Shown: positions 2,455-59,263 of the stretch, piece after piece
How the letters are laid out: every line of letters begins with the position of its first letter
Numbering within the stretch: position 1 is the first letter of the stretch
Origin: a virus
Reading direction: 5' to 3' (one strand)
IMG/VR virus record: IMGVR_UViG_3300042991_000522
Location: 1 to 60,919 of that record
Length of the DNA: 60,919 nucleotides
Notes under the pieces: generated by a model
Seen by the model: the letters and a program-made list of their open reading frames with translations, nothing else
What the model was told of the DNA's origin: nothing
Database searches by the model: none
Made by a program: the position numbers and the translations under genes

Positions 2455-2701
2455 TTAATTTTTTTAATTTACGTTTTCTATATTGTATTAGTGTACAAAA
2501 GTGTTCATGAAATTTAAATTCATCTGTTGTATCTTTTTTTATTGTATAAAAACTTGATGAATCATTATTAGGTCTTTCATTCATAATTTGTACTCTATTA
2601 ATTCTAACTAGTTCTATTGTATAAAAATTATTTTCAAGAAAGAATGTAACACCATGTTTTTCTATAGTTTTTGTGCAATATAGTTTATCTCCTGCTTTCA
2701 T
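2447..2701 (-). CDS. KLNE-family protein, GDKLYC subfamily
   Basis: 84 residues. It begins MKAGDKLYCTKTIEKHG and continues FFLENNFYTIE, nearly matching the next gene upstream; this defines a second core subfamily. The tag is YRKRKLKKLNE. Confidence 0.85.
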   Translation of the reverse strand: MKAGDKLYCTKTIEKHGVTFFLENNFYTIELVRINRVQIMNERPNNDSSSFYTIKKDTTDEFKFHEHFCTLIQYRKRKLKKLNE

Positions 2702-2951
2702 TTAGTTTTTTAAGTTTAAGTTTTCTATATGCGGTTTCTGTCATAAAATAGTCATAAAAATTATAATCATCGTCAGCATTAAATGGTGATAGATGAAAAT
2801 TTGATGATAAAAAAAGGTTTGACATATCATTTATAATTTCTATATTGTAATTATCTGCTGATTCTATTTTGTGTAGTTTATTTTCTAAAAAAAATATTCT
2901 ACCATGATGTATTAAAGTTTTAGTGCAATATAGTTTATCTCCTGCTTTCAT
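2685..2951 (-). CDS. KLNE-family protein, GDKLYC subfamily
   Basis: 88 residues beginning MKAGDKLYCTKTLIHHG, then FFLENKLHKIE. Strong identity with the gene at 2447 at both ends and divergence in the middle suggest duplication followed by rapid change of the central loop. The tag is YRKLKLKKLNESRR; the last codons also encode the start region of the next gene. Confidence 0.85.
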   Translation of the reverse strand: MKAGDKLYCTKTLIHHGRIFFLENKLHKIESADNYNIEIINDMSNLFLSSNFHLSPFNADDDYNFYDYFMTETAYRKLKLKKLNESRR

Positions 2952-3186
2952 TTATTTTTTCTATTTTAAGTTTTCTTAATTCTTTTTCTGTTATAAAATT
3001 TTCTATGTGGTAGTGATTATTTTGCTTATCTTCTTTTATCCAATAAAACACAGAATTTTCACTTATTTTCATATAAAAACCAATGTTGGCTATTGTATAT
3101 TTTTTACCATTAACCAATTGTTTAACATCTGGTTTTTTTTGATGATATATTACAACTTCACCTATTTTATATTTTACTCGACTCAT
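2935..3186 (-). CDS. KLNE-family small protein
   Basis: 83 residues. KYKIGEVVIYHQKK, then NGKKYTIANIG, look like the same SH3-like core in divergent form; YWIKED follows. The tag is LRKLKIEKINESRR. Confidence 0.8.
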   Translation of the reverse strand: MSRVKYKIGEVVIYHQKKPDVKQLVNGKKYTIANIGFYMKISENSVFYWIKEDKQNNHYHIENFITEKELRKLKIEKINESRR

Positions 3187-3442
3187 TTAGTTTTTGTATT
3201 TTAAGTGTTCTCAATTCTTTTTCTGTCATAAAGTATTTTCTATATTTGATATTTAGTGAATATGTTGGATTTGTTGTGACTTTAATTTTTTCATCATAAA
3301 TATAAAAGTTATTATATTTAATAACATTTGATACATATTGTATTATATGATATTTTAAATTTTCTCTATATGTTATATTATTAATTGTGAATGTTTTTAT
3401 ACATATAACGTTTAGTGATTTCATATCATTTGGTTTTTTCAT
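3167..3442 (-). CDS. KLNE-family small protein
   Basis: 91 residues. The region before LNVICIKTFTINNITY is a short extra N-terminus; the core then resembles the GDKLYC group without the GD pair. The tag is LRTLKIQKLNESSKI. An internal start is possible. Confidence 0.75.
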   Translation of the reverse strand: MKKPNDMKSLNVICIKTFTINNITYRENLKYHIIQYVSNVIKYNNFYIYDEKIKVTTNPTYSLNIKYRKYFMTEKELRTLKIQKLNESSKI

Positions 3443-3695
3443 TTAGTTTTTGTATTTTTTGTTTTCTAATTTCCTTTTTAGTTGCAAAATAATCTTCAAA
3501 AATATAATAATATTTTTTATTCATTTTTGATGATGGTTGATAAATATAATGACAACAAATATGATATTGATTAGTTTCAACACTAATCGAAATTTGATTT
3601 TTATCAATATCAATTTTTTGAATAGTATAAGTATTATTTTTTAAATTTATCTTTTCTCTATTCTTTATACACAATATTTTATCACCTACTTTCAT
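3426..3695 (-). CDS. KLNE-family protein, GDKLYC subfamily
   Basis: 89 residues beginning MKVGDKILCIKNREKIN and containing NNTYTIQKIDIDKN. The central part is rich in His, Cys and Tyr (YHICCHYIY). The tag is IRKQKIQKLNEKTK. It overlaps the next gene by four bases (ATGA type). Confidence 0.85.
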   Translation of the reverse strand: MKVGDKILCIKNREKINLKNNTYTIQKIDIDKNQISISVETNQYHICCHYIYQPSSKMNKKYYYIFEDYFATKKEIRKQKIQKLNEKTK

Positions 3696-3952
3696 TTATT
3701 TTTTTTTATTTTATCTTTTCTTAATTCTTTTTCTGATATAAAATAGTCTGAAAATATAAAATATGTACCAAAATTTTTTATGCTCCAATATTTTTCTCCA
3801 TTTTCTGATGTAGTTTTAATATATTTATCTAGAACATCTAATTTAATTTCTAATATTGTATATTTTTTACTTTTTAATACTACAATATATTTTTGACTGT
3901 CATTTTTACGTATAAGGTTTTTTATACAAAATACTTTATCTCCTTCTTTCAT
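3692..3952 (-). CDS. KLNE-family protein, GDKLYC subfamily
   Basis: 86 residues beginning MKEGDKVFCIKNLIRKN, with KKYTILEI and GEKYWSIK in the core. The C-terminus LRKDKIKKNK is a shortened tag. Its first codons overlap the end of the interrupted gene upstream. Confidence 0.8.
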   Translation of the reverse strand: MKEGDKVFCIKNLIRKNDSQKYIVVLKSKKYTILEIKLDVLDKYIKTTSENGEKYWSIKNFGTYFIFSDYFISEKELRKDKIKKNK

Positions 3953-4220
3953 TTAATTTTTGTATTTTTTCTCTTCTAGTTTTTTTATCATCTTTAACAA
4001 TTATTTTTTCTACTATTAATTGAGATAATGACTAACCGTAAATTCCTTCTGTCATTGCCCAGTGATTATTATGTTCTACAAATTTTAAATTTTCTATTTG
4101 ACAATAATATGGATATTTTATTCTTTTATTAACAGGACAATTTCCATTTAACGTACTAGACCAAATTGATGGTCGTTTGGTTATTATTATATAGTCTCCT
4201 ATCTTAAAATTGTGTTTCAT
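3936..4220 (-). pseudogene. KLNE-family gene interrupted by in-frame TAG
   Basis: The frame from ATG 4220 opens MKHNFKIGDYIIITKRP and stops at TAG 4034-4032 after 62 codons. The same frame continues for 32 more codons and ends with a perfect family tag, TRREKIQKLNERR, at the usual overlap with the next gene. The simplest reading is a nonsense mutation of a 94-residue gene. Amber readthrough is possible, but TAG ends other genes here (for example 16823-17119), so genome-wide recoding is unlikely. Confidence 0.75.
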
Positions 4221-4428
4221 TTATATTATTTAATTTTTGTATTTTTTCTTTTCTTTCTTGTTTAAGATTTATAAAAAAATTTATTGGTACCCAATGACTC
4301 ATACCTTTTTGATCTATTACATAAGCAAAATTGTTATCGTGTATATCATAGTAATCAAAATAAAAAATTCTATTTTTTTTTAATAGTATGCTACCTTCTT
4401 GATATATTAATTTATCTCCTTTTTTCAT
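4204..4428 (-). CDS. KLNE-family small protein
   Basis: 74 residues beginning MKKGDKLIYQEGSILLKKN, with MSHWVPINFF in the centre. The tag ERKEKIQKLN is followed by NINETQF, which comes from overlap with the downstream gene. Confidence 0.8.
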   Translation of the reverse strand: MKKGDKLIYQEGSILLKKNRIFYFDYYDIHDNNFAYVIDQKGMSHWVPINFFINLKQERKEKIQKLNNINETQF

Positions 4429-4681
4429 TTATTTTTTGAATTTTAAGTTTTCTACATTCTTTGATATTATCCAGGTATGATGATGTTATTTTGTCTGAAC
4501 CCATTGATAGCACTTTATTTATATAAACTATTTGATTATCATTATTATCTACTTCTCTTGATATTTGTGTTATTGTGAAAATTTCATTTGTAAGAGTCCA
4601 TTTTGGATTGCTCTTAAGTATTGAATATACTTTTTTTGGATTTATTATTACTTTGTCTCCAATTTTAAATATTGTTTTCAT
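4412..4681 (-). CDS. KLNE-family protein, GD-x-V/PxW subfamily
   Basis: 89 residues. FKIGDKVIINPKKVYSILK, NPKWTLTNEIFTI and NKVLS align with the PxWY subfamily although the tyrosine has been lost. The tag is CRKLKIQKINEKRR. Confidence 0.8.
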   Translation of the reverse strand: MKTIFKIGDKVIINPKKVYSILKSNPKWTLTNEIFTITQISREVDNNDNQIVYINKVLSMGSDKITSSYLDNIKECRKLKIQKINEKRR

Positions 4682-4865
4682 CTATTTTTTGTAATTTAAG
4701 TTTTCTAAGTTCTGTTTTATAATTAATTTTTATATATTCATCATATGTATCTGCTGAATTTTGAAATTTCGTAGCATCTTCTATATTGCTAGAAAATCTA
4801 TAGTCGTAATTATCATAAGAGCACCAATATTTACCATTTTTAATATTTTTCAGTACATATGTCAT
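4665..4865 (-). CDS. KLNE-family protein, NxKxGKY subfamily
   Basis: 66 residues. KNIKNGKYWCSYD, a middle NIEDATKF and a final LRKLKLQKIDENNI match the genes at 15041 and 19138 in order and spacing. This third core type lacks the GD-x-V start. No function recognised. Confidence 0.8.
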   Translation of the reverse strand: MTYVLKNIKNGKYWCSYDNYDYRFSSNIEDATKFQNSADTYDEYIKINYKTELRKLKLQKIDENNI

Positions 4866-5097
4866 ATAATTTATCTAATTTATTTTTTCTATTTTGTTTA
4901 AAATCACTAAAGTAGCCATCTTTTTTATTAAAAGTTGCTAAATCAAAACTATGTCTCTCATTTTCATCATCAATTATATAATAAGAGTCACCTATAATAT
5001 CTATTACTTGGTATATTTTATTAACTGTGGTGGTATGTCTTCGGTCTGACCTCATTATACATGGATCCACACAAATTATATTATCTCCTATTTTCAT
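4840..5097 (-). CDS. KLNE-family SH3-like protein
   Basis: 85 residues beginning MKIGDNIICVDPCIM, then NKIYQVIDIIGDSYYIIDD, a plausible small beta-barrel core. The tag NRKNKLDKL is followed by YDICTEKY, read through the start of the next gene. Confidence 0.8.
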   Translation of the reverse strand: MKIGDNIICVDPCIMRSDRRHTTTVNKIYQVIDIIGDSYYIIDDENERHSFDLATFNKKDGYFSDFKQNRKNKLDKLYDICTEKY

Positions 5098-5218
5098 ATA
5101 TTGTGTTTTGAAGTTTAATTGCTATTCTATATGTTAATGGTGTTGATGGTCTATTCCAATACTCATTATTTTGTATAATAGTATTCAAATCAATATCTTC
5201 TATTATTTCTATTTTCAT
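5081..5218 (-). CDS. 45-residue protein in KLNE operon
   Basis: An ATG at 5218 opens a 45-codon frame (begins MKIEIIEDIDLN, ends NTIYENRR) that exactly fills the space between its neighbours, overlapping each by a few bases as the rest of the operon does. It lacks the tag, so it may be a remnant. No domain recognised. Confidence 0.6.
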   Translation of the reverse strand: MKIEIIEDIDLNTIIQNNEYWNRPSTPLTYRIAIKLQNTIYENRR

Positions 5219-5475
5219 TTATTTTCGTATATTTTATTTAATTTTTCTTTTCTATTTTTCTTTATTGCTGGTAAAAGATAATATGTTGCTATAGTATTAT
5301 TATTATTATTACGTGATAAATTTTTGTCTAAATAAGCTAATGGGTACTCAGAATTATAATCAATATTTATAATTTGAAATATCTCTGGTGAAAACCACAT
5401 GGGTCTAATACCACCAAAACATGATAATTTTTCGTTTATTTTAACAAAATCACCAATTTTTAATTTTATCTTCAT
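5215..5475 (-). CDS. KLNE-family protein, GD-x-V/PxW subfamily
   Basis: 86 residues, first gene of the leftmost minus-strand array. LKIGDFVKINEKLSC, then GIRPMWFSPEIFQII and DKNLSRNN mark it as a PxWY relative. A run of asparagines (ATT repeat) expands the centre. The tag is NRKEKLNKIYENK. An imperfect TATATTAG element lies just upstream on the minus strand. Confidence 0.85.
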   Translation of the reverse strand: MKIKLKIGDFVKINEKLSCFGGIRPMWFSPEIFQIINIDYNSEYPLAYLDKNLSRNNNNNTIATYYLLPAIKKNRKEKLNKIYENK

Positions 5476-9103: not shown

Positions 9104-9409
9104 AAATTATATTTTTTAGATTTAACATACAGGTTTAAAAAATTTTTGCAATCATCTAATTTTTTTTGACGTAAACAACACATTTGGTATATATTTATCA
9201 ATTTTACATTCTGATTTTATATCTGACACATCAGTATCATTAATTTCATCTGTGTCATTGTCATATTTGCATAGCATATGATATATTACACTATCACCTT
9301 TATAGTTAGCAATACGGTCAATAAAATAATCTTTATTTTCATGAACATACACTGTGTATTTTTTAATATCTTTTTTATTATAAAGTTCGTATATTTTTAA
9401 GTGTTTCAT
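9100..9409 (-). CDS. KYNI-family protein, TSDDL-DC subfamily, frameshifted at A8
   Basis: It begins MKHLKIYELYNKK. As printed it stops at 9152 (ends FTSKKIR), but dropping one base from the T run at 9160-9167 gives LFTSKKLDDCKNF and the end KSKKYNL at the usual overlap (102 residues). The restored segment matches TSDDLxDC of the proteins at 16823, 24312 and 39808, which supports the correction. Confidence 0.75.
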
Positions 9410-9714
9410 ATATTATATTTATTAGCTGTTAATTTTATTTCTAATTCTTCTTTTTCTTTTGTTGTTGCTTTTCTTTCAATAAAAGTTTTATCTAAATAAA
9501 AATTTATAATACCACTTAATGTTGAAACCGCTATAGTATAATTATAATTACTATTACCATTAATTATTTTACCACAATTAAATAATCCTTTATATACATC
9601 TTTCCAATGATTCATGTATTTATCTTTAAAAATAATATAATCTCCTATTTTCAATTTTACTTTATATTTATCTAATTCAATAATATGTTTTTCGTATGCT
9701 TTAAGGTATTTCAT
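9406..9714 (-). CDS. KYNI-family SH3-like protein
   Basis: 102 residues: start MKYLKAYEKH, core LKIGDYIIFKDKYMN with FNCGKIINGN, end TANKYNI. The ATG overlaps the stop of the upstream gene by four bases. Confidence 0.85.
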   Translation of the reverse strand: MKYLKAYEKHIIELDKYKVKLKIGDYIIFKDKYMNHWKDVYKGLFNCGKIINGNSNYNYTIAVSTLSGIINFYLDKTFIERKATTKEKEELEIKLTANKYNI

Positions 9715-10085
9715 ATATTATATTTTTCAGAATCTTTTTTAACTTTCATAATTTCAATTTCTTCTGGTGTTGCCAATCTAATAAGGTTCTCTTTATCTGC
9801 TGTGAAAATTTCACCTTGCTCTTTTAATCCATCTGTCATCGAACCCATATATCTTGTATATTTAAAAATATTTTTTGGTACATTATCATACCTAACATTA
9901 TAAAAGTAATATTTTTTTCCAAATTTATTAAATTCTATATTATGTATTTGACCTATATTGTTATTTAGAAAATCTTTTATTTCATTATGTATATTTTCTC
10001 TGGGTGTTAATTTAACGTAATCACCAACTTTGAATTTTGCATCTGATAAATTTGTAAAATATTCATATGTTTTTAAGTGTTTCAT
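9711..10085 (-). CDS. KYNI-family SH3-like protein, NNNIGxI subfamily
   Basis: 124 residues: MKHLKTYEYFTN, then FKVGDYVKLTPREN, LNNNIGQIHNIEF and VRYDNVPKNIF. It is the longest copy of the GDYV/NNNIG/YDNxP core and pairs with the genes at 8098 and 11515. It ends SEKYNI. Confidence 0.85.
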   Translation of the reverse strand: MKHLKTYEYFTNLSDAKFKVGDYVKLTPRENIHNEIKDFLNNNIGQIHNIEFNKFGKKYYFYNVRYDNVPKNIFKYTRYMGSMTDGLKEQGEIFTADKENLIRLATPEEIEIMKVKKDSEKYNI

Positions 10086-10393
10086 ATATTATATTTATTT
10101 AAATCTTTTTTCATTTTTATAAAATCTTGTAAATTCCAATAATTATCAGATGTATATACTTTAAATAAATTTGCTCTAAACTCTCCATTTTCTGTTGTAA
10201 AATATAAATCTGATCTAAAATCACGTCTGCTAATAATTGTTCCTTTATTAGTATGATCTCCTACTCCTAATTGCGATAAACCACCATTAAAATTTGTATA
10301 AAAACCATTCCATAATACATCAACCAATTTAATATTTGATGGTAGAGGTTCGCTTTTTATTATATTTTCTTCATATGTTTTTAAATGTTTCAT
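10082..10393 (-). CDS. KYNI-family protein
   Basis: 103 residues: MKHLKTYEENIIK to LNKYNI. A glycine-rich centre (LSQLGVGDHTNKGTIISRR) precedes strand-like residues. GVGDHTNK recalls GMGDHVNK in the protein at 5997, hinting at a distant relation. Confidence 0.8.
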   Translation of the reverse strand: MKHLKTYEENIIKSEPLPSNIKLVDVLWNGFYTNFNGGLSQLGVGDHTNKGTIISRRDFRSDLYFTTENGEFRANLFKVYTSDNYWNLQDFIKMKKDLNKYNI

Positions 10394-10788
10394 ATGTTAT
10401 ATTTATTTGAGTTTAATAATATTTCAAAATTATTAGTATTTAGTTTGGTATTTCTATCAAACTTAAATGAAAAATCATAATCATTTTCATACATTAATTC
10501 CATAGTTATTGAAAAATATTTTATTAGAGTATCATTTATAGTATATTTTGGATTGTAAACATTAAATGTTAATACTTTAGCGATTGTGTGAATAAATATA
10601 TGTGAAATTAGTTCTGTGAAATCGGAATTACTATTTTCATATAATGAAATTTTATTATTATTAGAAATATATACTGAATATTGATGATGTTTATCATCAA
10701 CTTTTTTAATTATTTTATTGAGAAATTTAACTATAGATTTATTATCTATAGTATAATTATTTTGTTCATATGCTTTAATGTATCTCAT
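10390..10788 (-). CDS. KYNI-family protein
   Basis: 132 residues: MRYIKAYEQNNY to SNKYNI. The middle is a run of amphipathic helices and strands with no known motif. It overlaps the next gene by four bases. Confidence 0.8.
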   Translation of the reverse strand: MRYIKAYEQNNYTIDNKSIVKFLNKIIKKVDDKHHQYSVYISNNNKISLYENSNSDFTELISHIFIHTIAKVLTFNVYNPKYTINDTLIKYFSITMELMYENDYDFSFKFDRNTKLNTNNFEILLNSNKYNI

Positions 10789-11126
10789 TATATATTATAT
10801 TTTTCTGCGTCAATTTCTGCTTCAGCTTTAATGTCCCAAGCAATACTAAATTTTTTAGCTTTTTTTGGTCCAACACACCAACTTAACACATCATCAAAAT
10901 AATGTTTTTCCATATCTGTAAATTGACCATCTTTTAATCTTTCTTTTTTATATTCTTTCCAAGAGAGATGTCTAAATTTATTACCAGTTCTAGATAAAAT
11001 TACCATTATATTTCTAGCTATTGTTTCATGTTCTGATTTTCTAAAAACGGAATTCCTTGGATTAACTTTTGCGAAATCTGATGGTTTCAACTCAATATAA
11101 TTTTCGTATTTTTTTAGATATATCAT
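10788..11126 (-). CDS. KYNI-family protein
   Basis: 112 residues: MIYLKKYENYIEL to DAEKYNI. The centre is positively charged (TGNKFRHLSWKEYKKERL), then VLSWCVGPKKAKKF. DNA binding is conceivable but no named fold is seen. Confidence 0.8.
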   Translation of the reverse strand: MIYLKKYENYIELKPSDFAKVNPRNSVFRKSEHETIARNIMVILSRTGNKFRHLSWKEYKKERLKDGQFTDMEKHYFDDVLSWCVGPKKAKKFSIAWDIKAEAEIDAEKYNI

Positions 11127-11518
11127 ATGTTATATTTTTTTGCATTTTTATATAAATCAAAATTATCTCTTGTAACATTCTCCCCGCTTAATTTTAATTC
11201 ATAAAACATTTCAGCATCTTCTAAACTATCTGCTTCAAACAATAACCCAGTCACCATATTTCTTTTCCAATAAGAAAGACTCACTTTATTACCTTTATAC
11301 GTATAACTAGTTTTAACAGAATTTGTAAAAAAATCATAATAATTACCATCGGTTCTTCTAATTGCATCATAGTATATAGAACCATTTAAAATGCTATTAA
11401 TTTTTATAATAGCTAATGTTATTCCAAGACCGTATCTTGCTGGAGCTTTCCAAACATAATATTTTTTATCAATATTAGTTTCTTTATATCTGGATTCATA
11501 TGTTTTTAAATATTTCAT
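11123..11518 (-). CDS. KYNI-family protein
   Basis: 131 residues: MKYLKTYESRYKET to NAKKYNI. Contains KKYYVWKAPARYGLG, like the YxxWK segment of the TSDDL-DC subfamily, and then LEDAEMFYELK where the others have DDLxDC. Confidence 0.8.
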   Translation of the reverse strand: MKYLKTYESRYKETNIDKKYYVWKAPARYGLGITLAIIKINSILNGSIYYDAIRRTDGNYYDFFTNSVKTSYTYKGNKVSLSYWKRNMVTGLLFEADSLEDAEMFYELKLSGENVTRDNFDLYKNAKKYNI

Positions 11519-11826
11519 ATATTATATTTATTTGCTGCTAATCTTAATTTTAATTTTTCTTTTGATTTATCAAAATCAACAATTCTATCCATATCAAATG
11601 TTCGTGCACCATTAAATCCAAACCATTTTTCTAATTCGGGAGGTGGATTGTCATACACCACTTTTACATTCTCTGTATATTTATATGCTATTTTACCTAT
11701 ATTATTATTAATAAAATTATTCACAACATCTTTGAGTACATACATTTTTAAATCTATTCTTACTAACACATAATCTCCAACTTCTGGTTCCTTATTTAAA
11801 TCTTCAAACATTTTAATATGTTTCAT
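11515..11826 (-). CDS. KYNI-family SH3-like protein, NNNIGxI subfamily
   Basis: 103 residues: MKHIKMFEDLNKEP, VGDYVLVRIDLKM, FINNNIGKIAYKY, VVYDNPPPEL, end AANKYNI. First gene of an eight-gene minus-strand KYNI operon; the stop-start overlaps suggest coupled translation. Confidence 0.85.
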   Translation of the reverse strand: MKHIKMFEDLNKEPEVGDYVLVRIDLKMYVLKDVVNNFINNNIGKIAYKYTENVKVVYDNPPPELEKWFGFNGARTFDMDRIVDFDKSKEKLKLRLAANKYNI

Positions 11827-36052: not shown

Positions 36053-36403
36053 ATGAAACATTTAGAAATATATGAGAAATATTCTGGTAAATTTATATTA
36101 GAACGAAAGCCTGATGATAAAATAGATCCACAAAAAATACATAAAAAATTGAATGTTAATGATTGGATTGAATATTATTTTACATATTGGAGCTATGAAC
36201 AAAATAAAACATTGACAGGAAAAGAAATTGGTCAAATTGTAGAAAAAGGTGATCCTAATGTTGATTTAGATATTATAGTTAAACCATTAAATACAATTAT
36301 TAAAGATGAAATGTGGAAAACTGGAGAAAGACCAATCAGATCACATTATATAATTAGGAAGTTAGAAGAACACGAAATTAATTCAATGAAATATAATATA
36401 TGA
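36053..36403 (+). CDS. KYNI-family protein
   Basis: 116 residues: MKHLEIYEKYSGK to SMKYNI, first of the longest operon of the set (to 41427). NDWIEYYFTYWSYEQN and GKEIGQIVEKGDPN suggest a divergent GDYV/NIGxI core. Confidence 0.82.
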   Translation: MKHLEIYEKYSGKFILERKPDDKIDPQKIHKKLNVNDWIEYYFTYWSYEQNKTLTGKEIGQIVEKGDPNVDLDIIVKPLNTIIKDEMWKTGERPIRSHYIIRKLEEHEINSMKYNI

Positions 36404-36843
36404 AACATTTAAAAATATATGAGAATTATATACCATCAGAATATGATGTTAATTTGGAAAAATTAAAAATATTACTTAAGCACTTTAGGATAGTATTAGA
36501 AGAATTTGGCTTTAATTATAGAAATTATGTAGATGGACATACATATGAAATTGAATTTGATGATCAAAATGACGATTATGTATTTTATTTAAATATGAAA
36601 ATTGATTCGTTTCAAAAAAATAATATAATATTACAATTTAAAAAATCTTTAGCACATAAAAATAATATTGTGACTTTTATTACTGAATATTTAAAAAATA
36701 TAAATGGTATTAAATTTATTAGCTATGATAATAGTCATACATATACTTATTATATAAATATTAAAGATGTAGATAAATTAATTAATCAAATATCTGTGAA
36801 TGATATAAATTTTAAATTAAACGCAAATAATTATAATATATGA
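36400..36843 (+). CDS. KYNI-family protein
   Basis: 147 residues: MKHLKIYENYIPS to ANNYNI. Alternating strands (YEIEFDDQNDDYVFYLNM) and helices; VDKLINQISVNDINF recalls VQRLIDKLSI of the protein at 16096, possibly distant paralogues. Confidence 0.82.
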   Translation: MKHLKIYENYIPSEYDVNLEKLKILLKHFRIVLEEFGFNYRNYVDGHTYEIEFDDQNDDYVFYLNMKIDSFQKNNIILQFKKSLAHKNNIVTFITEYLKNINGIKFISYDNSHTYTYYINIKDVDKLINQISVNDINFKLNANNYNI

Positions 36844-37115
36844 AATATTTAAAAAGATTCGAAAGAAAATATTTTTTATTTGAAGTTGGTGATAAAGTAA
36901 AATTAGACACCTTAATAAGAGATTATAAAAATAGAATATATATCATATTACAGCAACATTTTGATCCTACTGATGGTTGGACACGATATTATATTACAAG
37001 TGATGACGATGATAAACTTAAGTTTTGGGAGTATGAACAAAATTTAAAAAAAGCAACTAAAAAAGAAATAGAAGATTATCAATTAAAAATAATAGCAAAA
37101 AAATATAATATATGA
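36840..37115 (+). CDS. KYNI-family SH3-like protein
   Basis: 91 residues: MKYLKRFERKYF, FEVGDKVKLDTLIRDYKN, YIILQQHF, end AKKYNI. A compact GD-x-V core of the kind also found with KLNE tags. Confidence 0.85.
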   Translation: MKYLKRFERKYFLFEVGDKVKLDTLIRDYKNRIYIILQQHFDPTDGWTRYYITSDDDDKLKFWEYEQNLKKATKKEIEDYQLKIIAKKYNI

Positions 37116-37663
37116 GATATTTAAAAACATATGATAAAATGATAAATTTTGATTTAGATGAAAATATTCAATCATTAGTACTCGTTGATGCCATAAAAAG
37201 AAATAATATAGATTTGATAAAAAAATTATTTGATAGTGGATTAGATCCGAATATGAATTTTAGTGATTATGGTCAACCAATATTTTTAACAATACTCGAA
37301 CAAACACCTGTTAATATTGATATTGTCAAACTTTTTATAAAATATGGTGTAAATATTCACGAAAAATTTTATAATGATGGACTTTCAATATTTCATTATG
37401 TAATGGGTTTGTTATTAGATAAAAAAACTAAGCATGATTATTATATTGAACTTCTATCTATTTTCTTAGAGGCTGGTGCTAATTTACTATTAGAAGATAA
37501 ACATAAAAAAGAAAATTATTTAGAAACAATAGAAAGATTTTTTATAAACGAATATATAACAAAAAAAATGGCTATTAAAATATTTGATACAATTAAAGAA
37601 AAAGCACCAGAACAATATGAGCAGTATGCTATGAAAAAAGCAGCTAAAAAATATAATATATGA
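37112..37663 (+). CDS. Ankyrin-like KYNI-family protein
   Basis: 183 residues: MRYLKTYDKMINF to AKKYNI. Between them lie three to four ankyrin-type units (LVDAIKRNNIDLIKKLFDSG, VKLFIKYGVNIHEKFYNDG, FLEAGANLLLEDK). It keeps frame, unlike its larger relative at 23318. Likely a protein-binding module. Confidence 0.82.
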   Translation: MRYLKTYDKMINFDLDENIQSLVLVDAIKRNNIDLIKKLFDSGLDPNMNFSDYGQPIFLTILEQTPVNIDIVKLFIKYGVNIHEKFYNDGLSIFHYVMGLLLDKKTKHDYYIELLSIFLEAGANLLLEDKHKKENYLETIERFFINEYITKKMAIKIFDTIKEKAPEQYEQYAMKKAAKKYNI

Positions 37664-38034
37664 AATATATTAAAAAATTTGAAATAAGATTTGATTTAGA
37701 TGTCGAAGAAATATATTTGGAAGACATTTATAAAAAATCTAAATATAGGTTTTTGTATAGTAACATGTATAGACATAAAGATCATAAAATAGTAAAAGAT
37801 ATACTTGAAGAAAAATTAAAAGGTAAGATTATATCATTTACTCACAGAGAAACCACAAATACTTATGTTCACACACAACTTAAAAAAGATAAAATATTAG
37901 ATGTTGAATATGATAATGATGGTGGTAATCGAATATCGTATGTAAAGACAAAAGATAGTTGGTATTCAATTTACGAAGAAGAACCAATATATATTCATAA
38001 TACCGAATCAGACGCTGATAAATATAATTTGTAA
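37660..38034 (+). CDS. KYNI-family protein
   Basis: 124 residues: MKYIKKFEIRFDLD to ADKYNL. The segment KGKIISFTHRETTNTYVHT parallels IGKVISFQCSDCGETHTG of the protein at 7673 without its cysteines, so one may have lost a metal site. Confidence 0.82.
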   Translation: MKYIKKFEIRFDLDVEEIYLEDIYKKSKYRFLYSNMYRHKDHKIVKDILEEKLKGKIISFTHRETTNTYVHTQLKKDKILDVEYDNDGGNRISYVKTKDSWYSIYEEEPIYIHNTESDADKYNL

Positions 38035-38069
38035 TATTAGATTTTAATATATAAAAGAAAAATCTTTTA

Positions 38070-38651
38070 ATGGAAAAATTTACAAAAATGAAAGATAAGC
38101 CAGCATTACCTCAAGAAGAAGTTTTATATAAAGGCAAACATCTTGATATGATAAAATATAAAGATACTGAAATATTACAAATTGGAGATAAAGTTGCAAT
38201 ATTACCATATTTTAAAGATGAAGGTACATTTCTAATGAGATTAGAATACACACCAGCTTTTCAATTTAAAAATAGAGATAAATCAGAGTTGAAAAAAATA
38301 ACAAATTATTTAACTGTTATTACAGGAACAATAGAAGAAGGTGAAACACCAGAAAAAACAATTAGAAGAGAATTATATGAAGAAGGTGGTGTAGTATTAA
38401 ATAATTTATTTCAATTTGAAATTGAAGGACCATTTTTTGTTCAAAAATATAGTACTGGACAAGCTTATTTGTGTTTATTAGAATTACCTGTTAATTCCTA
38501 TCGTCAAATTAAACCACCAACAGATGGCTCTGAAAAAGAAAAATTATCAAAAAACATTAGAATATCTGTAGCTGATGTTAATCAAATTGTAAATAATGAC
38601 CTTATAACTAAATATTTAATAACTAAATTAAAAACTGTTCTTGAAGGATGA
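38070..38651 (+). CDS. Nudix hydrolase
   Basis: 193 residues. The Nudix box is complete: G86, E92 and then R100-E101-L-Y-E104-E105-x-G107-V (RELYEEGGV). The N-terminal part (LYKGKHLDMIKY, VAILPYF) resembles the ADP-ribose/ADP-sugar pyrophosphatase group. It would hydrolyse a nucleoside diphosphate linked to another moiety, perhaps NAD-derived or an RNA cap. The only untagged protein in this operon; the next start overlaps its stop. Confidence 0.9.
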   Translation: MEKFTKMKDKPALPQEEVLYKGKHLDMIKYKDTEILQIGDKVAILPYFKDEGTFLMRLEYTPAFQFKNRDKSELKKITNYLTVITGTIEEGETPEKTIRRELYEEGGVVLNNLFQFEIEGPFFVQKYSTGQAYLCLLELPVNSYRQIKPPTDGSEKEKLSKNIRISVADVNQIVNNDLITKYLITKLKTVLEG

Positions 38652-38932
38652 AATATTTAAAGAAATTTGAAGAATTAGATGAAGATAATGAACCTATTGA
38701 TATTATAAGTTATCCAGATGGATATATTATTACAGTCAATAATAGTGAATTTGAATTATTGAAACAAGAATTTGACATTTCTTGGGATGATGAACCAGAT
38801 TATGAAGAGGGTGTAATAGGACAATGGAGATTTAATGATGATGATAGTGATGAGATAGAAAAATGGTTAGAAGGATATAGATTAATTAAAGATCCAAAAT
38901 TGTATAAAGACACAAAGAATTATAATATATGA
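38648..38932 (+). CDS. KYNI-family acidic protein
   Basis: 94 residues: MKYLKKFEELDED to TKNYNI, strongly acidic (DDEPDYEEG, DDDSDEIE), with IGQWRFNDDD. Possible DNA-mimic-like charge, but no named fold. Confidence 0.82.
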   Translation: MKYLKKFEELDEDNEPIDIISYPDGYIITVNNSEFELLKQEFDISWDDEPDYEEGVIGQWRFNDDDSDEIEKWLEGYRLIKDPKLYKDTKNYNI

Positions 38933-39210
38933 TTAAAAATTTTAAAATATTTGAAGAATATTCAATTAATTCATTTAAAAAAGGAGATTATGTAAAATGT
39001 ATTTATGATGAAACTTTATTTGATAAATATTTAAAAAAAGATAAAATATATATAGTTACCAGTACAGTAGGTGAGGCTGGTTCTGACAAAAGATTTATTA
39101 AAATTGATAATTATCCACAACTTAATAATATTAGAAGATTTGTAAAAGCTACAGAAAAAGAAATAGAAGAATATAAATTTAATAATGCAATAAAAAATTA
39201 TAATATATGA
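38929..39210 (+). CDS. KYNI-family SH3-like protein
   Basis: 93 residues: MIKNFKIFEEYSIN, KKGDYVKCIYDETLFD, KDKIYIVTSTVG, end IKNYNI. Close in plan to the gene at 36840. Confidence 0.85.
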   Translation: MIKNFKIFEEYSINSFKKGDYVKCIYDETLFDKYLKKDKIYIVTSTVGEAGSDKRFIKIDNYPQLNNIRRFVKATEKEIEEYKFNNAIKNYNI

Positions 39211-39518
39211 AAATATTAAAATTTAATGAAAATAATAACGATGATGATTCTTACAAAAAATTTGTAAAAATTACATTTGAAGGTGAACTTGAAGTACCAT
39301 TTGAGGATATAAAAAGAACTGAGGCTTATCAAAATGCATTTTATAAAAAATATGATAATCCTTTATTTTATGGTGTTGAAGGATATTTAGAACAAAATAC
39401 TGATAATATAAATTACAATTATAGATTAGTTGATGGTAATGGTAATCCAATTGATGATGAGGAAGAATTTGATAAGAAAGTAGAATTATATAACGCTGGA
39501 AAAAAATATAATATATGA
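39207..39518 (+). CDS. KYNI-family protein
   Basis: 103 residues: MKILKFNENNNDD to GKKYNI. Strand-rich (KFVKITFEGELEVPF) and acidic; no domain recognised. Confidence 0.82.
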   Translation: MKILKFNENNNDDDSYKKFVKITFEGELEVPFEDIKRTEAYQNAFYKKYDNPLFYGVEGYLEQNTDNINYNYRLVDGNGNPIDDEEEFDKKVELYNAGKKYNI

Positions 39519-39808
39519 GATTTTTAAAAACATATGAATTATATACTGGAAATAATGTTGATTACAGTGTTGGTGATATCGTAGTTTGTGCAGATGATAA
39601 AATAAAAGGTATTAAAACAACATCATTAAAAGAAGGTGATAAATATAACGTTTTAAAAATTTATAGTAATCCAGAAGATAAATTTTTAAAAACACCATTT
39701 TTAAGAGTAGATGTTGAGAATATAGAAACAGGTGAAATATCAAAAGGATGGGATTCAAATAGATTCAAATTAGAATTTGAATTTGATGCAGGAAAATATA
39801 ATATTTAA
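39515..39808 (+). CDS. KYNI-family SH3-like protein
   Basis: 97 residues: MRFLKTYELYTGN, YSVGDIVVCADDKIKG, GDKYNVLKIYSNPEDK, FLRVDVENIETGE, end AGKYNI. The order GD-x-V, KYxVLKI, VENxxTGE is typical of SH3-like beta barrels. Confidence 0.85.
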   Translation: MRFLKTYELYTGNNVDYSVGDIVVCADDKIKGIKTTSLKEGDKYNVLKIYSNPEDKFLKTPFLRVDVENIETGEISKGWDSNRFKLEFEFDAGKYNI

Positions 39809-40098
39809 TGAAACATTTAAAAACATTTGAAAATATAGAATTAAAAAGATATATAATATGTGATGATATTAGAGTAGATGGTACATCTATATATCAAATT
39901 CTTGGTGATAGAAATAGAGATATAACACTTAAAATTATAGCAAGATATAATAATGGTGTGGACGTTGGTTATATAAGAGATATGATATATTATGGAAATA
40001 AATATGAAAATTTAAATATTTATTATCAAACCGATGATTTAGATGATGCTCTTGATAAATTAAAAATGGTTGACATTTCAAAAAAATATAATATATAA
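39808..40098 (+). CDS. KYNI-family protein, TSDDL-DC subfamily
   Basis: 96 residues: MKHLKTFENIELKR, YIICDDIRVDGTSIYQIL, YQTDDLDDALDKL, end SKKYNI. The conserved cysteine of the other copies is alanine here. Confidence 0.85.
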   Translation: MKHLKTFENIELKRYIICDDIRVDGTSIYQILGDRNRDITLKIIARYNNGVDVGYIRDMIYYGNKYENLNIYYQTDDLDDALDKLKMVDISKKYNI

Positions 40099-40101
40099 TA
40101 T

Positions 40102-40461
40102 ATGAAACATTTAAAAACATACGAAGAAAAACAAGAATATGACTTACCTAATGAAACAGATAAAAAATATTGGACACTTCTTGATAAAGATTATAAGCCA
40201 GTTGCAGTATTTGAGCTTGAGGAAATTATAAAAGAAATTAAAAATGGTATTGAAAGAATAACATATATGTTTGAAGGGTTAACAATAGATAAATCTAACA
40301 AATTTAAAGGTGGTAGTTTTGATATAAACCAATTAATTATTGCAGATATTGAGAAAAAAACATTTGAAAAAAAGAAAAAGGATAAAAGATTTAGACTTGC
40401 AAATGAAGAAGAAATTAATACTTATAACATGTTAAGAAATTCAGCAAAATATAATATATGA
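40102..40461 (+). CDS. KYNI-family protein
   Basis: 119 residues: MKHLKTYEEKQEY to SAKYNI. A lysine-rich patch (EKKTFEKKKKDKRFR) near the C-terminus. Separated from the preceding gene by three bases. Confidence 0.82.
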   Translation: MKHLKTYEEKQEYDLPNETDKKYWTLLDKDYKPVAVFELEEIIKEIKNGIERITYMFEGLTIDKSNKFKGGSFDINQLIIADIEKKTFEKKKKDKRFRLANEEEINTYNMLRNSAKYNI

Positions 40462-40760
40462 AACATTTAAAAACATATGAAATAGTAAATAAATCTAAAT
40501 ATAAAGTAGGTGATTATATATTACATGAAAAACCTTTTTATGGTAGTTTATCTATAAAAGATATAGAGATGGATAGAAGACAAAAAATAATAAAAATTAT
40601 AGAACCAAGATATTATTTGGTAGAAGTTTATAGATTAGATACATTATCAAAAATAAACATAAATCTTGGATGTAGAGAAGACAATATAGAAAGAGAATTA
40701 ACGTCAAAAGAAACAGAAGATTTTAAAATAGAACTAATGGCAGCGAAATATAATATATGA
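40458..40760 (+). CDS. KYNI-family SH3-like protein
   Basis: 100 residues: MKHLKTYEIVNKSK, YKVGDYILHEKPFYGS, IKIIEPRYYLVEVYRLD, end AAKYNI. Confidence 0.85.
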   Translation: MKHLKTYEIVNKSKYKVGDYILHEKPFYGSLSIKDIEMDRRQKIIKIIEPRYYLVEVYRLDTLSKININLGCREDNIERELTSKETEDFKIELMAAKYNI

Positions 40761-40939
40761 AACATTTAAAAACATACGAAGAACATACAGCGGTTGAATA
40801 CGTTGCTCCAGAAAGAGAACAACCATCTTATAAAAATGAAATTAAGAAAAAGAAAAGAAAAAAACGTGGTGAGTTAGGTACTGTTAATGTATTACCTAAT
40901 CATGTTAAAGATGTGATTTCATTCAAAACTTACGCATAA
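40757..40939 (+). CDS. N-tagged basic protein without KYNI
   Basis: 60 residues. The start MKHLKTYEEHTAVEY is family-typical, but the rest is a lysine/arginine-rich tail (KNEIKKKKRKKRGELG) ending VISFKTYA. Either the C-terminal half was lost or this is a tagged DNA-binding peptide similar in character to small internal head proteins. Confidence 0.7.
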   Translation: MKHLKTYEEHTAVEYVAPEREQPSYKNEIKKKKRKKRGELGTVNVLPNHVKDVISFKTYA

Positions 40940-40941
40940 TT

Positions 40942-41427
40942 ATGAAATATATTAAAAAATTTGAAAAAACAGAAGAATTACAAGAATATAAAGGTAAAAT
41001 TTATATTAACAAACCATCAACAAATTATTTCAAAAGTTCTATCGTATTTCAAGTCATTTTTGTGGATAGAGTATATAGCTATACATCAAAAAGTCATAAT
41101 AATGAGTATGATATTTCAAGTGATGTGATAAATATAGAAGGAGAAGATATGATTCAATTTAATAGAAATAGCAATAAAGAATATTTTACATATAACAACA
41201 GCACTCAGACATATAATATAGATGAATTTGAAATGATTAATTTTATGACAGCACAAGAATTTTATAATAAATACAAAAGTTCATATTTACGCATATTAGA
41301 AGAGTTGCTAGATTATTCAGAAAAAAAACTAACAGAATACGGTAGATCTAAAGCTGATAGAATGATTAATAAATTAACAATACCAGATGTTGAACACATA
41401 ATTAGTTCAAGAAAATATAATATCTAA
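40942..41427 (+). CDS. KYNI-family protein
   Basis: 161 residues: MKYIKKFEKTEELQ to SRKYNI (last codon ATC). Strand-rich first half and helical second half (YLRILEELLDYSEKKL). Last gene of the operon. Confidence 0.82.
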   Translation: MKYIKKFEKTEELQEYKGKIYINKPSTNYFKSSIVFQVIFVDRVYSYTSKSHNNEYDISSDVINIEGEDMIQFNRNSNKEYFTYNNSTQTYNIDEFEMINFMTAQEFYNKYKSSYLRILEELLDYSEKKLTEYGRSKADRMINKLTIPDVEHIISSRKYNI

Positions 41428-41437
41428 TATAATTTAT

Positions 41438-41445
41438 TATATTTG
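41438..41445 (+). promoter_or_regulatory. Bacteroidota-type -7 element, leaderless spacing
   Basis: TATATTTG ends only four bases before the ATG at 41450, so the transcript should start at or within the start codon. Confidence 0.65.
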
Positions 41446-41449
41446 TATT

Positions 41450-41791
41450 ATGGTTATAACAAATTTATTAGATATTATTGAAAATCTTGGTTTCAAATGG
41501 AATGGAACTTGTTATACTTGTGGTTTTTATAGAATTAAAGAAAATAATCATTATTTATATCTTCAAAAATTTAAAGGTTATAAATATAAAAGAGTTGTAT
41601 ATGATGAAATATATTCAATATTTTTAAGAGATGATAAGTATTCGTGGTTTGATTATCATGTTAATGAAGAAGAATTTAATAAATTTAAAAATTCAATAAA
41701 AATTGCTTTAAGAGACACAAAATTAAAAAGAATAGAAGGACATTTTAAACATTCCGAAGAACATTATTCACATTTACATTCAATGCATTAA
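41450..41791 (+). CDS. KLNE-family protein
   Basis: 113 residues: IENLGFKWNGTCYTCGFYRI carries a CxxC, and ALRDTKLKRIEGH is the tag, followed by a histidine-rich tail (EEHYSHLHSMH) that may bind metal. Sits between two KYNI genes but has its own host-type promoter. Confidence 0.8.
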   Translation: MVITNLLDIIENLGFKWNGTCYTCGFYRIKENNHYLYLQKFKGYKYKRVVYDEIYSIFLRDDKYSWFDYHVNEEEFNKFKNSIKIALRDTKLKRIEGHFKHSEEHYSHLHSMH

Positions 41792-41807
41792 ATTTTAAAT
41801 ATTAATC

Positions 41808-41820
41808 TTTTATATATAAT
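41808..41820 (+). promoter_or_regulatory. Late-type TTTTATATATAAT element
   Basis: Three bases before the ATG of the single KYNI gene at 41824. Confidence 0.45.
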
Positions 41821-41823
41821 CAT

Positions 41824-42384
41824 ATGAAATATATTAAATCATATGAAAGCATAAGAGATGAATATCCAGGTATGTTTCCACCAAAAAAGGAAGAAGATAT
41901 ACCACAAACTGTACCAGGCTTTGAACTTGGTACAATAGATCCAGATGATAATGAGCCTTATAATTTTAAAGGAGATGGTCATATAGAAAAATCCGATGCC
42001 GAATCTTATAAAACATTTTTAAAAGTAACTAAAGAAAGAAATTTTATAGAAACTTCAACAGAAATTAAAATAAATATCAAAAGATTATATCAAGATTATT
42101 ATATGTCTATATATAATTATCATAAGCATTTTAGAAAATTTTTAAATGATGAACTATTAGGTAAATATGTTTCTGATGGTTTCTTTTCAATATTTACGAA
42201 TGATAATAATGAACCAGATAAATTTTTTCAAGGTGTAATTGAAAGAATTTATATAATTTTTCAGGAAGACTATGCATTTATTAATTTTAAATTAAAAAAT
42301 CAAGAATATTCAGAAGATAATATGTGTGGAGATTTTATAACTATTGATAAAATTAAATCAACAGCAAATCAATATAACATATAA
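41824..42384 (+). CDS. KYNI-family protein
   Basis: 186 residues: MKYIKSYESIRDEY to NQYNI. A proline-rich N-terminal third (PGMFPPKKEEDIPQT) leads to a globular part with LGKYVSDGFFSIF. Ends TAT AAC ATA, a synonymous variant of the usual codons. Confidence 0.82.
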   Translation: MKYIKSYESIRDEYPGMFPPKKEEDIPQTVPGFELGTIDPDDNEPYNFKGDGHIEKSDAESYKTFLKVTKERNFIETSTEIKINIKRLYQDYYMSIYNYHKHFRKFLNDELLGKYVSDGFFSIFTNDNNEPDKFFQGVIERIYIIFQEDYAFINFKLKNQEYSEDNMCGDFITIDKIKSTANQYNI

Positions 42385-45891: not shown

Positions 45892-46833
45892 ATGAAAGAA
45901 TTTGAAAATGTTGATATTTTCGACAGTATCGACGCTCAGAGTGAAACACTCGATTTTTTAGAAAAAAAAGGTGGTAGTTTAGATGGTATTTACAGACCAA
46001 AAATAACCGACAAGAAAAAGGGTTATGTCTCAACTATTAGATTCTTACCAAATCTATCAAAAGAAGGTAAAGTATTACAAGCAGCAATTGAAAAACATCA
46101 ACATTATGTTGATTTTAAAAATCATCCTGAATTAGCAGGTTATTATGACTGCATAAAAAACTTTACAGACAAATGTGATTTTTGCACAATGTATTGGAAA
46201 TTGAGAAATTCAAAAAATGCATCTGATGTAGAAAAAGCAGAACTTATTAGTAGAAGTACTAAATACTATTCTTACATTTTAGTTGTAGAAGATGAACAAA
46301 ATCGTGAATTAGAAGGTAAGATATTAATTTATCCATATGGATATAAAATTAAAGAGAAAATTAAAGACCAAAAAGATGGAATGGCAGGTGATCCTTGTAA
46401 TGTTTTTGACTTAGCTAATGGTAAAAATTTTAAACTTGTAATGAAACAACTTGGAGATTTTCCAAATTATGATTCAAGTACATTTATGGAAGTTTCTCCA
46501 TTATCAATTCAAGGACATAAAGTTCCAGTAGAAGTTGATCCAAAAACTGGTAAAAATAAAATTACCAACACTAAGGTTAAAGATAAAATTACTAAATTTT
46601 TATTAGACAGAACTGTTGATTTAGAAGATCATATGGCTAAAGAATGGACTGCAGAAGATAAATATAAAGTATCACAAATTCTTGAAATTCTCTCTGGTGC
46701 AGATGTCCACACATCAAAACGTGAAGTAACAAAATCTTCTTCTGATAATTTATTAAAAGATATGGATGAAGATGAATCAACATTTGGTGAAACAGATGAT
46801 GCCGAAGATTTCTTCGAACTTGATGACAATTGA
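45892..46833 (+). CDS. gp32-like single-stranded DNA-binding protein
   Basis: 313 residues. The core has a metal site typical of T4-like gp32: HQHYVDF, then YYDCIKNFTDKCDFC (about residues 60-100). The C-terminal tail is acidic (DMDEDESTFGETDDAEDFF), the part that in T4 contacts replication partners. It coats single-stranded DNA in replication and recombination. It is followed by a strong terminator that lies inside the convergent endonuclease gene. Confidence 0.85.
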   Translation: MKEFENVDIFDSIDAQSETLDFLEKKGGSLDGIYRPKITDKKKGYVSTIRFLPNLSKEGKVLQAAIEKHQHYVDFKNHPELAGYYDCIKNFTDKCDFCTMYWKLRNSKNASDVEKAELISRSTKYYSYILVVEDEQNRELEGKILIYPYGYKIKEKIKDQKDGMAGDPCNVFDLANGKNFKLVMKQLGDFPNYDSSTFMEVSPLSIQGHKVPVEVDPKTGKNKITNTKVKDKITKFLLDRTVDLEDHMAKEWTAEDKYKVSQILEILSGADVHTSKREVTKSSSDNLLKDMDEDESTFGETDDAEDFFELDDN

Positions 46834-57346: not shown

Positions 57347-58210
57347 TTAATTTATATTAAAATCAGATATTTTTTCAGCTTCAATATCTTTCCAATTTTT
57401 ACCTCTAATTATATTATTTAGACTTGAACTTGATATATTAAAAAAATTTTTAATTTTTTTCTTATCTGTATTATTCTCAATTAAATATTTAATGTGTTTA
57501 ACTTCTTTTTCAATTAAAACTGAATTTTTCCTTATATTTTTATTAGACTCAAAAATATTTTTATAATATTTTATTTCATCGTTTGTTAACTTTTCGGTTA
57601 TTATTAAATATTTCCATCTTATATTATATTTTATATTACCAATTGTTCTAAAATTAACATTAAAAAATTTAGATATATCAGTTATACTTAAATCGGAATT
57701 TAACATTTTTTTAATTATAATTACTTCATTTTCTTTTAATTTTGATAAATGATTATTATTTTCACCACAGCATATACCTATTCTATTATTTGCCATTTTA
57801 ATTTTTGATTCCACAGAAAAAATTCTATTTTTTGATTTTTCTCCTATTTTTATTTTAGTTTCATCTGTGTGTTTATATCCATTAGTGGTGGATTCAACAA
57901 TAGGAACTATATTAAATCCATTATCGCACGAATTATATAAATCTATATAATATTGTTCTTTAATTAATAAGTCTTCTATTTTTTCAACAATTTCAATAAT
58001 TTCAAATTCTAAATTATTTATTCCATGTTTATTTGAAAATCTTTGTAATTTAAAATTCCTATGATAATTACCAACTAAACACTCAAAATGATGAAGATTT
58101 CTACCATATAAATTTTTAGTTGATCCAATATATATTTTATTATCAATTAAACTTTTAATTTTATAGACACCATATATATTATTGTATTCACTTCTTTTTA
58201 GTGTTTTCAT
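57347..58210 (-). CDS. GIY-YIG homing endonuclease
   Basis: 287 residues from ATG 58210, the first start after the ferritin stop; the longer frame from 58243 would overlap ferritin. GVYKIKSLIDNKIYIGSTKN is the GIY-YIG core, with a glutamate in IEDLLIKEQYYIDLY. HTDETKIKIGEKSKN is NUMOD3-like, and two helix-turn-helix-like segments (LSITDISKFFNVNFRTIGNI and KIKNFFNISSSSLNNI) end the protein. Confidence 0.85.
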   Translation of the reverse strand: MKTLKRSEYNNIYGVYKIKSLIDNKIYIGSTKNLYGRNLHHFECLVGNYHRNFKLQRFSNKHGINNLEFEIIEIVEKIEDLLIKEQYYIDLYNSCDNGFNIVPIVESTTNGYKHTDETKIKIGEKSKNRIFSVESKIKMANNRIGICCGENNNHLSKLKENEVIIIKKMLNSDLSITDISKFFNVNFRTIGNIKYNIRWKYLIITEKLTNDEIKYYKNIFESNKNIRKNSVLIEKEVKHIKYLIENNTDKKKIKNFFNISSSSLNNIIRGKNWKDIEAEKISDFNIN

Positions 58211-58211
58211 A

Positions 58212-58751
58212 TTAATTATATAAATCTTTAAATATCTCATCAATTTTCCATTTAGGCATATCTAAATTTATTTTATCTAAAACATCTCTAAACTTATTTT
58301 CTTCAGATATTTGTTCAGTTAAAAACCATTGAGCAAATTCAAATGTTGTACTATCATCTTCTTCTTTAGAAATTCTTGAAATTTCTTCCCATTCAGTTGA
58401 AACTAGCATCTCATGTTTTAATGATTCTCTTAAAACTTCCTCAATTGAATCAAAATCCTGTTTAACTTCCTCTGTAACTGGAACTTTAGCTACAACATTT
58501 CTATTAAATAAATACTGATAAACTTTATCCATATGAGTTAATTCTTCTTGAGCAGCTTTAAAATAGTATTTTGCACCATCAACCCATCCTGCATTATCTA
58601 GCCAACAAGACATAGCCCTGTAAATTTGTGATGATTGCAATTCATTCTTAATTTGTTTATTTAACAACTCTGTTATTTTATTTGGCAATCTACCTTCATC
58701 TTCGATATTTTCAAATAAACTAAATTTTACTATTCTATTCCTGGTTTTCAT
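58212..58751 (-). CDS. Ferritin with tag-like N-terminal extension
   Basis: 179 residues, four-helix ferritin. All ferroxidase ligands of E. coli FtnA are present at a constant offset of 20: E37, E70, H73, E114, Q147, E150 (FtnA E17, E50, H53, E94, Q127, E130), so the site should oxidise iron. The offset shows a 20-residue extension, MKTRNRIVKFSLFENIEDEG, whose KFSLFENIE resembles the KYNI-family start (LKTFENIE). Ferritin stores and detoxifies iron in 24-mers. A targeting role for the extension, for example into the head, is inference. Confidence 0.92.
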   Translation of the reverse strand: MKTRNRIVKFSLFENIEDEGRLPNKITELLNKQIKNELQSSQIYRAMSCWLDNAGWVDGAKYYFKAAQEELTHMDKVYQYLFNRNVVAKVPVTEEVKQDFDSIEEVLRESLKHEMLVSTEWEEISRISKEEDDSTTFEFAQWFLTEQISEENKFRDVLDKINLDMPKWKIDEIFKDLYN

Positions 58752-58768: not shown

Positions 58769-59263
58769 TTATATATTATATTTCCTATAATCTAACATCC
58801 ACCTACAAGCATCTTTAACTGTATCTGTTACCAAATCACCCATTGAGATAAGTCTATTTTTATATTTTGTTGGTTCTTTTTCTAACAATTTTATCAATTT
58901 TTTTTCCATTTTATTATCTAAATTTAAAGCTTTCATTTTAGAATCAATAATATTAAATGCTGAATTTCTAATTTGTGGTGCTGTTATTGATGTACCTTTA
59001 GATTTAAATTGAGTATCAATTTGATAGAATATATTATTTGAATCATATTTTTTACTAGTTAGCATATCTTCAAATATACTCTTATAATCAAAATCAGCAT
59101 CATAAAAATCACTATATGTTAATTTATTTATATTACCATCAATATCAATATTTTTAATAAAATTTGTAATAAATATTTTTAATTCTTTACTATCTTCTTC
59201 ACCTAAATATTTATATTTGGATTTTCTTTCATATCTATCTTCAAATTTCTTTATAAATTTCAT
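58769..59263 (-). CDS. KYNI-family protein (single gene)
   Basis: 164 residues: MKFIKKFEDRYER to YRKYNI, located just upstream of ferritin on the same strand and probably co-transcribed. Helical; DLVTDTVKDACRWMLDY near the end. No following gene overlaps its KYNI end. Confidence 0.82.
   Translation of the reverse strand: MKFIKKFEDRYERKSKYKYLGEEDSKELKIFITNFIKNIDIDGNINKLTYSDFYDADFDYKSIFEDMLTSKKYDSNNIFYQIDTQFKSKGTSITAPQIRNSAFNIIDSKMKALNLDNKMEKKLIKLLEKEPTKYKNRLISMGDLVTDTVKDACRWMLDYRKYNI

Follow-up and report, generated by a model that had tools for sequence, protein, structure and literature searches.

Why should a phage carry a ferritin gene, and what is the role of the 20 residues that precede the ferritin core of its product? 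These questions were raised by one ORF in a 60.9-kb virus fragment with 22% GC, the whole of which (60,919 nt) was analyzed here and is called the window. We lean, somewhat beyond an even balance, towards the following answer. The ferritin lineage would be phage-borne, and its extension would act as a capsid-targeting propeptide that brings the protein into a T4-like prohead and is probably trimmed there. The features of the window that bear on this reading are collected in Table 1. The gp32-like protein indicates that the record is T4-like. No gp23, portal or protease gene was identified on the window fragment, whereas relatives have gp23 and portal genes. A large outer-membrane beta-barrel protein with a carboxypeptidase-regulatory-like domain (TonB-receptor type) is also encoded inside this phage record (29839-33114, minus strand).

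Table 1. Coordinates and basis of the features discussed in the window
Feature	Position	Strand	Basis
FtnA-type ferritin gene	58212-58751	-	Pfam, gapless structure matches, iron ligands, predicted fold
Ferritin core with conserved C-terminal DMPKWKIDEIFKDL	58212-58691	-	Alignment with viral relatives
20-residue N-terminal extension MKTRNRIVKFSLFENIEDEG, proposed head-targeting propeptide	58692-58751	-	Absent in cellular ferritins; predicted disordered
LFE, residues 12-14, sole L/I-x-E within the extension, possible protease site (weak)	58710-58718	-	Fits T4 gp21 rule
Upstream KYNI gene, product with N-terminal MKFIKKFED and C-terminal KYNI; its orthologues define the corresponding slot in sister phages	58769-59263	-	33% identity to G023 orthologue
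GIY-YIG ORF, directly downstream of ferritin	57347-58210	-	Pfam GIY-YIG, E = 1e-11
T4 gp32-like single-strand DNA-binding protein	45892-46833	+	Pfam gp32, E = 1e-22; PHROG 224

The ferritin ORF runs from 58751 to 58212 and encodes 179 aa from an ATG start; the plus strand across the same interval contains stops throughout. Its product matched the full-length Pfam Ferritin domain (107 bits, E = 9e-31). Residues 25-163 aligned without gaps to residues 5-143 of E. coli FtnA (1eum), at an offset of exactly 20, and other solved ferritins also matched. A previous sequence-only reading of this DNA had proposed that the protein has 20 extra N-terminal residues relative to FtnA and that the ferroxidase ligands lie at +20, and the gapless alignment agreed with both statements. 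The FeA and FeB ligands are all present: FtnA E17, E50, H53, E94 and E130 correspond to E37, E70, H73, E114 and E150. In addition, FtnA Q127, Y24 and W122 are matched by Q147, Y44 and W142, while one ligand of the third iron site is altered (E129 to S149). The E. coli FtnA reference used for this numbering and for the tree was the sequence in the structure alignment, completed at its first residues. The AlphaFold model has a ferritin fold (mean pLDDT 88.6), and its predicted helices (24-54, 57-83, 103-130, 134-160 and 167-178) form a four-helix bundle with a short fifth helix. Judged by sequence and model, the ORF is an FtnA-type ferritin that looks catalytically complete, for which a 24-subunit cage and ferroxidase activity are predicted. 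An identity as encapsulated ferritin (EncFtn) was ruled out by the full-length Ferritin match; only the protein found in the same slot of sister phages, P0001, is EncFtn-like.

Cellular FtnA proteins (Flavobacteriaceae, E. coli) share this fold and the iron sites. However, the window ferritin was at most about 39% identical to them among the best listed matches from 395 sampled Bacteroidota genomes, and the cellular proteins do not have the extension. The bait of the cellular search was a typical Flavobacteriaceae ferritin sequence. A comparable extension was seen in none of 80 Flavobacteriaceae ferritins and in none of the 34 Bacteroidota ferritins examined, which were mostly best matches from the 395 genomes. 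The latter begin at the usual Met or up to about 10 residues before it. Host ferritins with the same N-terminal extension, which would have spoken against a phage-specific feature, were thus absent from both sets. With the phage ferritin alignment as query, a scan of the genome contigs returned no cellular relative.

In IMG/VR, seven contigs encode ferritins that are 48-51% identical to that of the window, and six of these are N-terminally complete. The ferritin of a crAss-like phage (L018) is 43% identical. In the ferritin tree, which has long branches and a cellular sampling drawn mostly from Bacteroidota, the viral ferritins fall on one side of a branch with support 99/92, and the window ferritin groups with its nearest viral relatives, L001-L006, at 97/84. 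Four ferritins from gut scaffolds, which are unverified records without annotation, were placed apart from the viral clade. Matches to the window ferritin among 50,697 phage records were confined to unverified scaffolds and two S. aureus phage records (H2 and H3), and the latter matches may represent host DNA. From the alignments and the tree, the extension appears to be a phage feature, and the window ferritin belongs to a well-supported viral ferritin clade.

The extension would vanish if translation began at the TTG of codon 22, and the protein would then be an ordinary phage-borne ferritin. This codon sits where cellular ferritins start and has AAGG upstream. However, Shine-Dalgarno-like sites precede only 3 of 111 genes in the window, and such a site also lies ahead of 9 of 110 internal TTG codons. 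An A-rich stretch precedes the ATG, as it does in other window genes; the ATG was preferred for these reasons. The sister ferritins also keep a conserved long extension. A start at the TTG therefore seems highly improbable to us, and the 179-aa product with its extension was retained.

What the 20 residues of the window copy resemble is less clear. The sequence-only reading had likened KFSLFENIE to LKTFENIE, the start of the KYNI-type proteins of this phage. This resemblance did not hold. A position matrix was made from the N-termini of the window proteins that end in KYNI, which were picked by their C-terminus and hence independently of the start (33 training tags). The window ferritin scored 1.66 bits, compared with 9-20 bits for 31 of the 33 training tags, and a score this good was reached by about 10% of random or internal 25-mers. 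Because this is the level of chance, the window sequence alone is insufficient to identify the extension as a KYNI-type tag. AlphaFold gave a pLDDT below 50 for residues 1-12 of the extension (predicted disorder) and an average of 49 for residues 11-20. T4 gp21 cuts after L/I-x-E (PMC9026906), and the LFE in the extension is a weak candidate for such a protease site, a motif short enough to occur by chance.

The KYNI-type proteins form a family of their own. In 38 window ORFs (e.g. 9406-11826 and 36053-42384), a start of the form MK[HY][LI]K[TKS][YF]E is combined with an end of the form K[YF]N[ILV], and the proteins are small and otherwise different. The relative G026 has 81 KYNI-type ends whose codons vary synonymously. 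This variation indicates that selection acts on the C-terminal motif at the peptide level, and the idea that it is a DNA signal only (promoter or overlap) was rejected on the same ground. Another repeated arrangement occupies 1033-5475 on the minus strand, with similar arrays in G026: a long tandem row of small divergent ORFs, each overlapping or abutting the next, with alike starts (MK.GD.) and alike ends (RK.KL.K.N).

The relatives L001-L006 were more informative. Their ferritins carry about 50-53 residues ahead of the core, beginning MKIISEAKRKEEALKKQKLMLEGFADTFNKIKRGDDTNILTEEAKK... (MKIISEAKRK...ILTEEA). A model of this extension also matched a non-ferritin protein on the L002 contig (likely start MKKKEFLTEAKRKAIISDKEKAIIESFAKIFNKIKRIDENQINE, E = 6e-8). 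In a scan of viral contigs, it found ten more loci, two of them identical, whose products have the same start and otherwise appear unrelated to ferritin. The start common to the ferritin extension and the unrelated phage proteins is MKKKEFLTEAKRK... One of the tagged proteins, on contig G432, is encoded 89 bases behind gp23, in an operon that comprises terminase-like, portal-like, S77 protease, scaffold-like and gp23 genes, with position and size as the only basis for naming the terminase, portal and scaffold. The N-terminal region of the G432 gp23 contains SLLTE↓A and the tag contains FLTE↓A (the arrow follows the glutamate of the site). In the L001-L006 ferritins themselves, KIISE↓A/T/N and I(L/I)TE↓E also conform to the L/I-x-E rule. 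An N-terminal peptide common to unrelated proteins, L/I-x-E sites and linkage to head genes were thus all found, which demonstrates that the extension of L001-L006 is a tag that these ferritins share with other phage proteins. The search for phage ferritins and for tagged proteins sharing their extension, which the sequence-only reading had suggested, was therefore positive for the longer extension of the relatives, while the motif in the window copy stayed at chance. No S77 protease was found in contigs G001-G007, which are fragments. A second common start, MKxxIKxLLRE↓G, was observed in G001, G002, G004 and G006 (L009-L017) on a poly(A)-polymerase/CCA-type enzyme, a GP88 protein, an AAA_33 kinase-like protein and others; these proteins are perhaps also head cargo.

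A second line of evidence came from the genomic slot. As had been claimed, the ferritin follows a KYNI gene on the same strand. Orthologues of this upstream gene were present in G023, L182, L183, L187 and G026. In G023, L182, L183 and L187, one of the next two genes encodes P0001 or a close relative, a 119-129-aa EncFtn/rubrerythrin homologue. The best PDB matches of P0001 were the Pyrococcus encapsulated-ferritin domain (5n5e) and a virus-like particle containing that domain (2e0z); it had no match among the 50,697 phage records. The protein in the slot of G026 was considered as a ferritin and rejected, being another tagged protein. P0001 starts MKNFEEFMRINE↓LLATT, and its relatives start MKNFYEFMKINE↓ in L183 and MKKYEEFKKMNE↓ in L187. 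This start is of the same type (MKxFxEF) as those of the T4 internal proteins, in which IpII and IpIII start MKTYQEFIAE↓A and IpI starts MKTFKEF. P0001 has aromatic residues at positions 4 and 7 and I-x-E at 10-12. Targeting in T4 depends mostly on residues 4 and 7, and processing on residues 8 and 10 (PMC9026906).

An [LIM]xE motif was found in the start region of all 12 phage EncFtn proteins, some of which are close relatives of each other, compared with a shuffled mean of 5.1; none of 5000 shuffles reached the observed number. The EncFtn of L192 has no tag and begins just past the site. The capsid proteins of these giant T4-like phages have [LIM]NE at residue 43. A prohead core protein begins MKIIKTFEDFISE↓ in G024, where its gene stands between those of gp20 and the S77 protease. 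Portal_T4 and Gp23 are present in G027, a KYNI-type relative, together with an ORF that resembles a protease (above the cut-off for S80, below it for S77).

Ferritin-like genes or domains were also associated with head genes elsewhere. The crAss-like L018 (9995-13395) encodes its viral-clade ferritin, without an extension, two genes before the Crass_capsid major capsid gene. EncFtn-like domains were found at the C-terminus of a portal-type protein (L184, 3472-5223; the portal match was just under the cut-off), inside a long head-module protein named by its position (L197, 4477-7134), and in two NUDIX proteins, one beside weak prohead-protease and capsid matches (L185, 4213-6261) and the other in L202 (4861-7638). 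BFVD contains ferritin-like folds inside entries named prohead protease, with weak scores.

These observations bear on two other accounts of the extension. According to one, the ferritin works in the infected cell as an auxiliary metabolic protein and takes up cytoplasmic ferrous iron and oxidant during infection, a role comparable to that suggested for the Dps and manganese catalase of gut phages; the extension would then be a functionless, loose leader. Phage Dps and manganese catalase have been read as stress enzymes (PMC8008677), and the intact catalytic ligands of the window protein, the chance-level motif and the extension-free crAss-like relative all fit such a role. It does not fit well with the shared phage tag of L001-L006, with the tagged EncFtn in the same slot, or with the several ferritin-like genes beside or within head genes. 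We consider this account possible but rather unlikely. According to the other, the extension sends the ferritin to a different phage-made place, such as the tail, the baseplate or an intracellular compartment. The EncFtn genes of L193-L196, L200 and L204 lie near sheath and tube-like genes, and these phages carry other conserved terminal motifs, such as the KYNI ends. However, where the tags are clearest, they match the head-targeting starts and protease sites of T4 and their genes belong to head operons, and we give this destination very little credence. An intact ferritin 24-mer measures about 12 nm. A tail tube should be too narrow for it, so its site of action would be the head, unless it entered the cell as separate subunits.

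The head is therefore the destination that we prefer. Late in infection, the extension would take the ferritin into the core of a T4-like prohead. In a ferritin cage the N-terminus faces outward, so the tag would be exposed. The prohead protease would probably trim the extension after a glutamate, and the trimmed ferritin would remain among the packaged DNA. There it could oxidize and hold ferrous iron, so that the DNA is spared iron-driven damage or iron is carried in the virion.

For the L001-L006 and P0001 lineages, head targeting seems quite probable. The case for the window copy is built on the viral clade, the extension-free cellular ferritins, the relatives' shared tag, the T4-type start of the slot-mate and the head-gene neighbours. 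On the other side are the chance-level motif of the window copy, the fragment on which no gp23, portal or protease was identified, and the extension-free crAss-like ferritin of the same clade. Our view of the window copy is more guarded: it belongs to the same ferritin clade, occupies the same slot and has a disordered extension where the relatives are tagged, but its motif is not significant alone. Since the tags of the window lineage, L001-L006 and the EncFtn proteins differ in sequence, function is transferred by analogy, and the 20 residues of the window copy may do the same job as the relatives' tag. The idea in the sequence-only reading that the ferritin is targeted to the head thus gained from the relatives' shared tag, found once behind gp23, and from the tagged EncFtn in the slot, and lost the motif match on which it had drawn.

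In a wider reading, several unrelated tailed phage groups may load ferritins of FtnA or EncFtn type into their heads, by propeptides, portal fusion or co-expression with capsid genes. Much like an encapsulin, the virion would then serve as a container that holds iron, protects DNA or delivers iron. We regard this generalization as evenly balanced between right and wrong. Iron in phage particles has so far been discussed mainly for tails. If true, our reading would offer a concrete route for it, and would give capsid targeting sequences a role beyond anti-defence proteins. The shared tags would also allow us to predict which uncharacterized proteins of these phages enter the head.

Phage ferritins as such are already known from database entries. 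PHROG 16594 and A0A8D9C9X5, from an uncultured marine phage, likewise contain the ferritin domain; the structure match is 31% identical, and PHROG 16594 has no function assigned and a profile that spans the ferritin domain only. Phage Dps and manganese catalase (Gratiaviridae and others; PMC8008677) are also phage-borne members of the ferritin superfamily with an oxidative-stress reading, but they belong to different families and head targeting was not proposed there. In the literature searched, with subscription journals mostly outside its coverage, we found no paper describing a ferritin that is directed into the head of a phage.

The closest parallel in mechanism is provided by T4 IpI-IpIII, with their capsid targeting sequence and gp21 trimming (PMC9026906, PMC3012670), in which a short N-terminal targeting peptide likewise precedes otherwise unrelated proteins. 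The window phage has a T4-type gp32, its relatives have a T4-type portal, protease and gp23, and the P0001 start matches MKTYQEF/MKTFKEF. However, the T4 cargo is an anti-restriction or unknown protein and not a ferritin, the window peptide has no significant T4 match, and packaging is predicted here. The closest parallel in cargo is the EncFtn/encapsulin system (PDB 5n5e, 2e0z), in which a ferritin-type iron protein is likewise held in an HK97-type shell and to which P0001 is related in sequence. The window protein differs in being a full FtnA-type ferritin, and the shell around it would be the head of an infectious phage, filled with DNA. Ferritins are a frequent cargo of encapsulins, which are relatives of phage capsids; head-loaded phage ferritins, if real, would be the mirror image of this arrangement and a possible link between the two.
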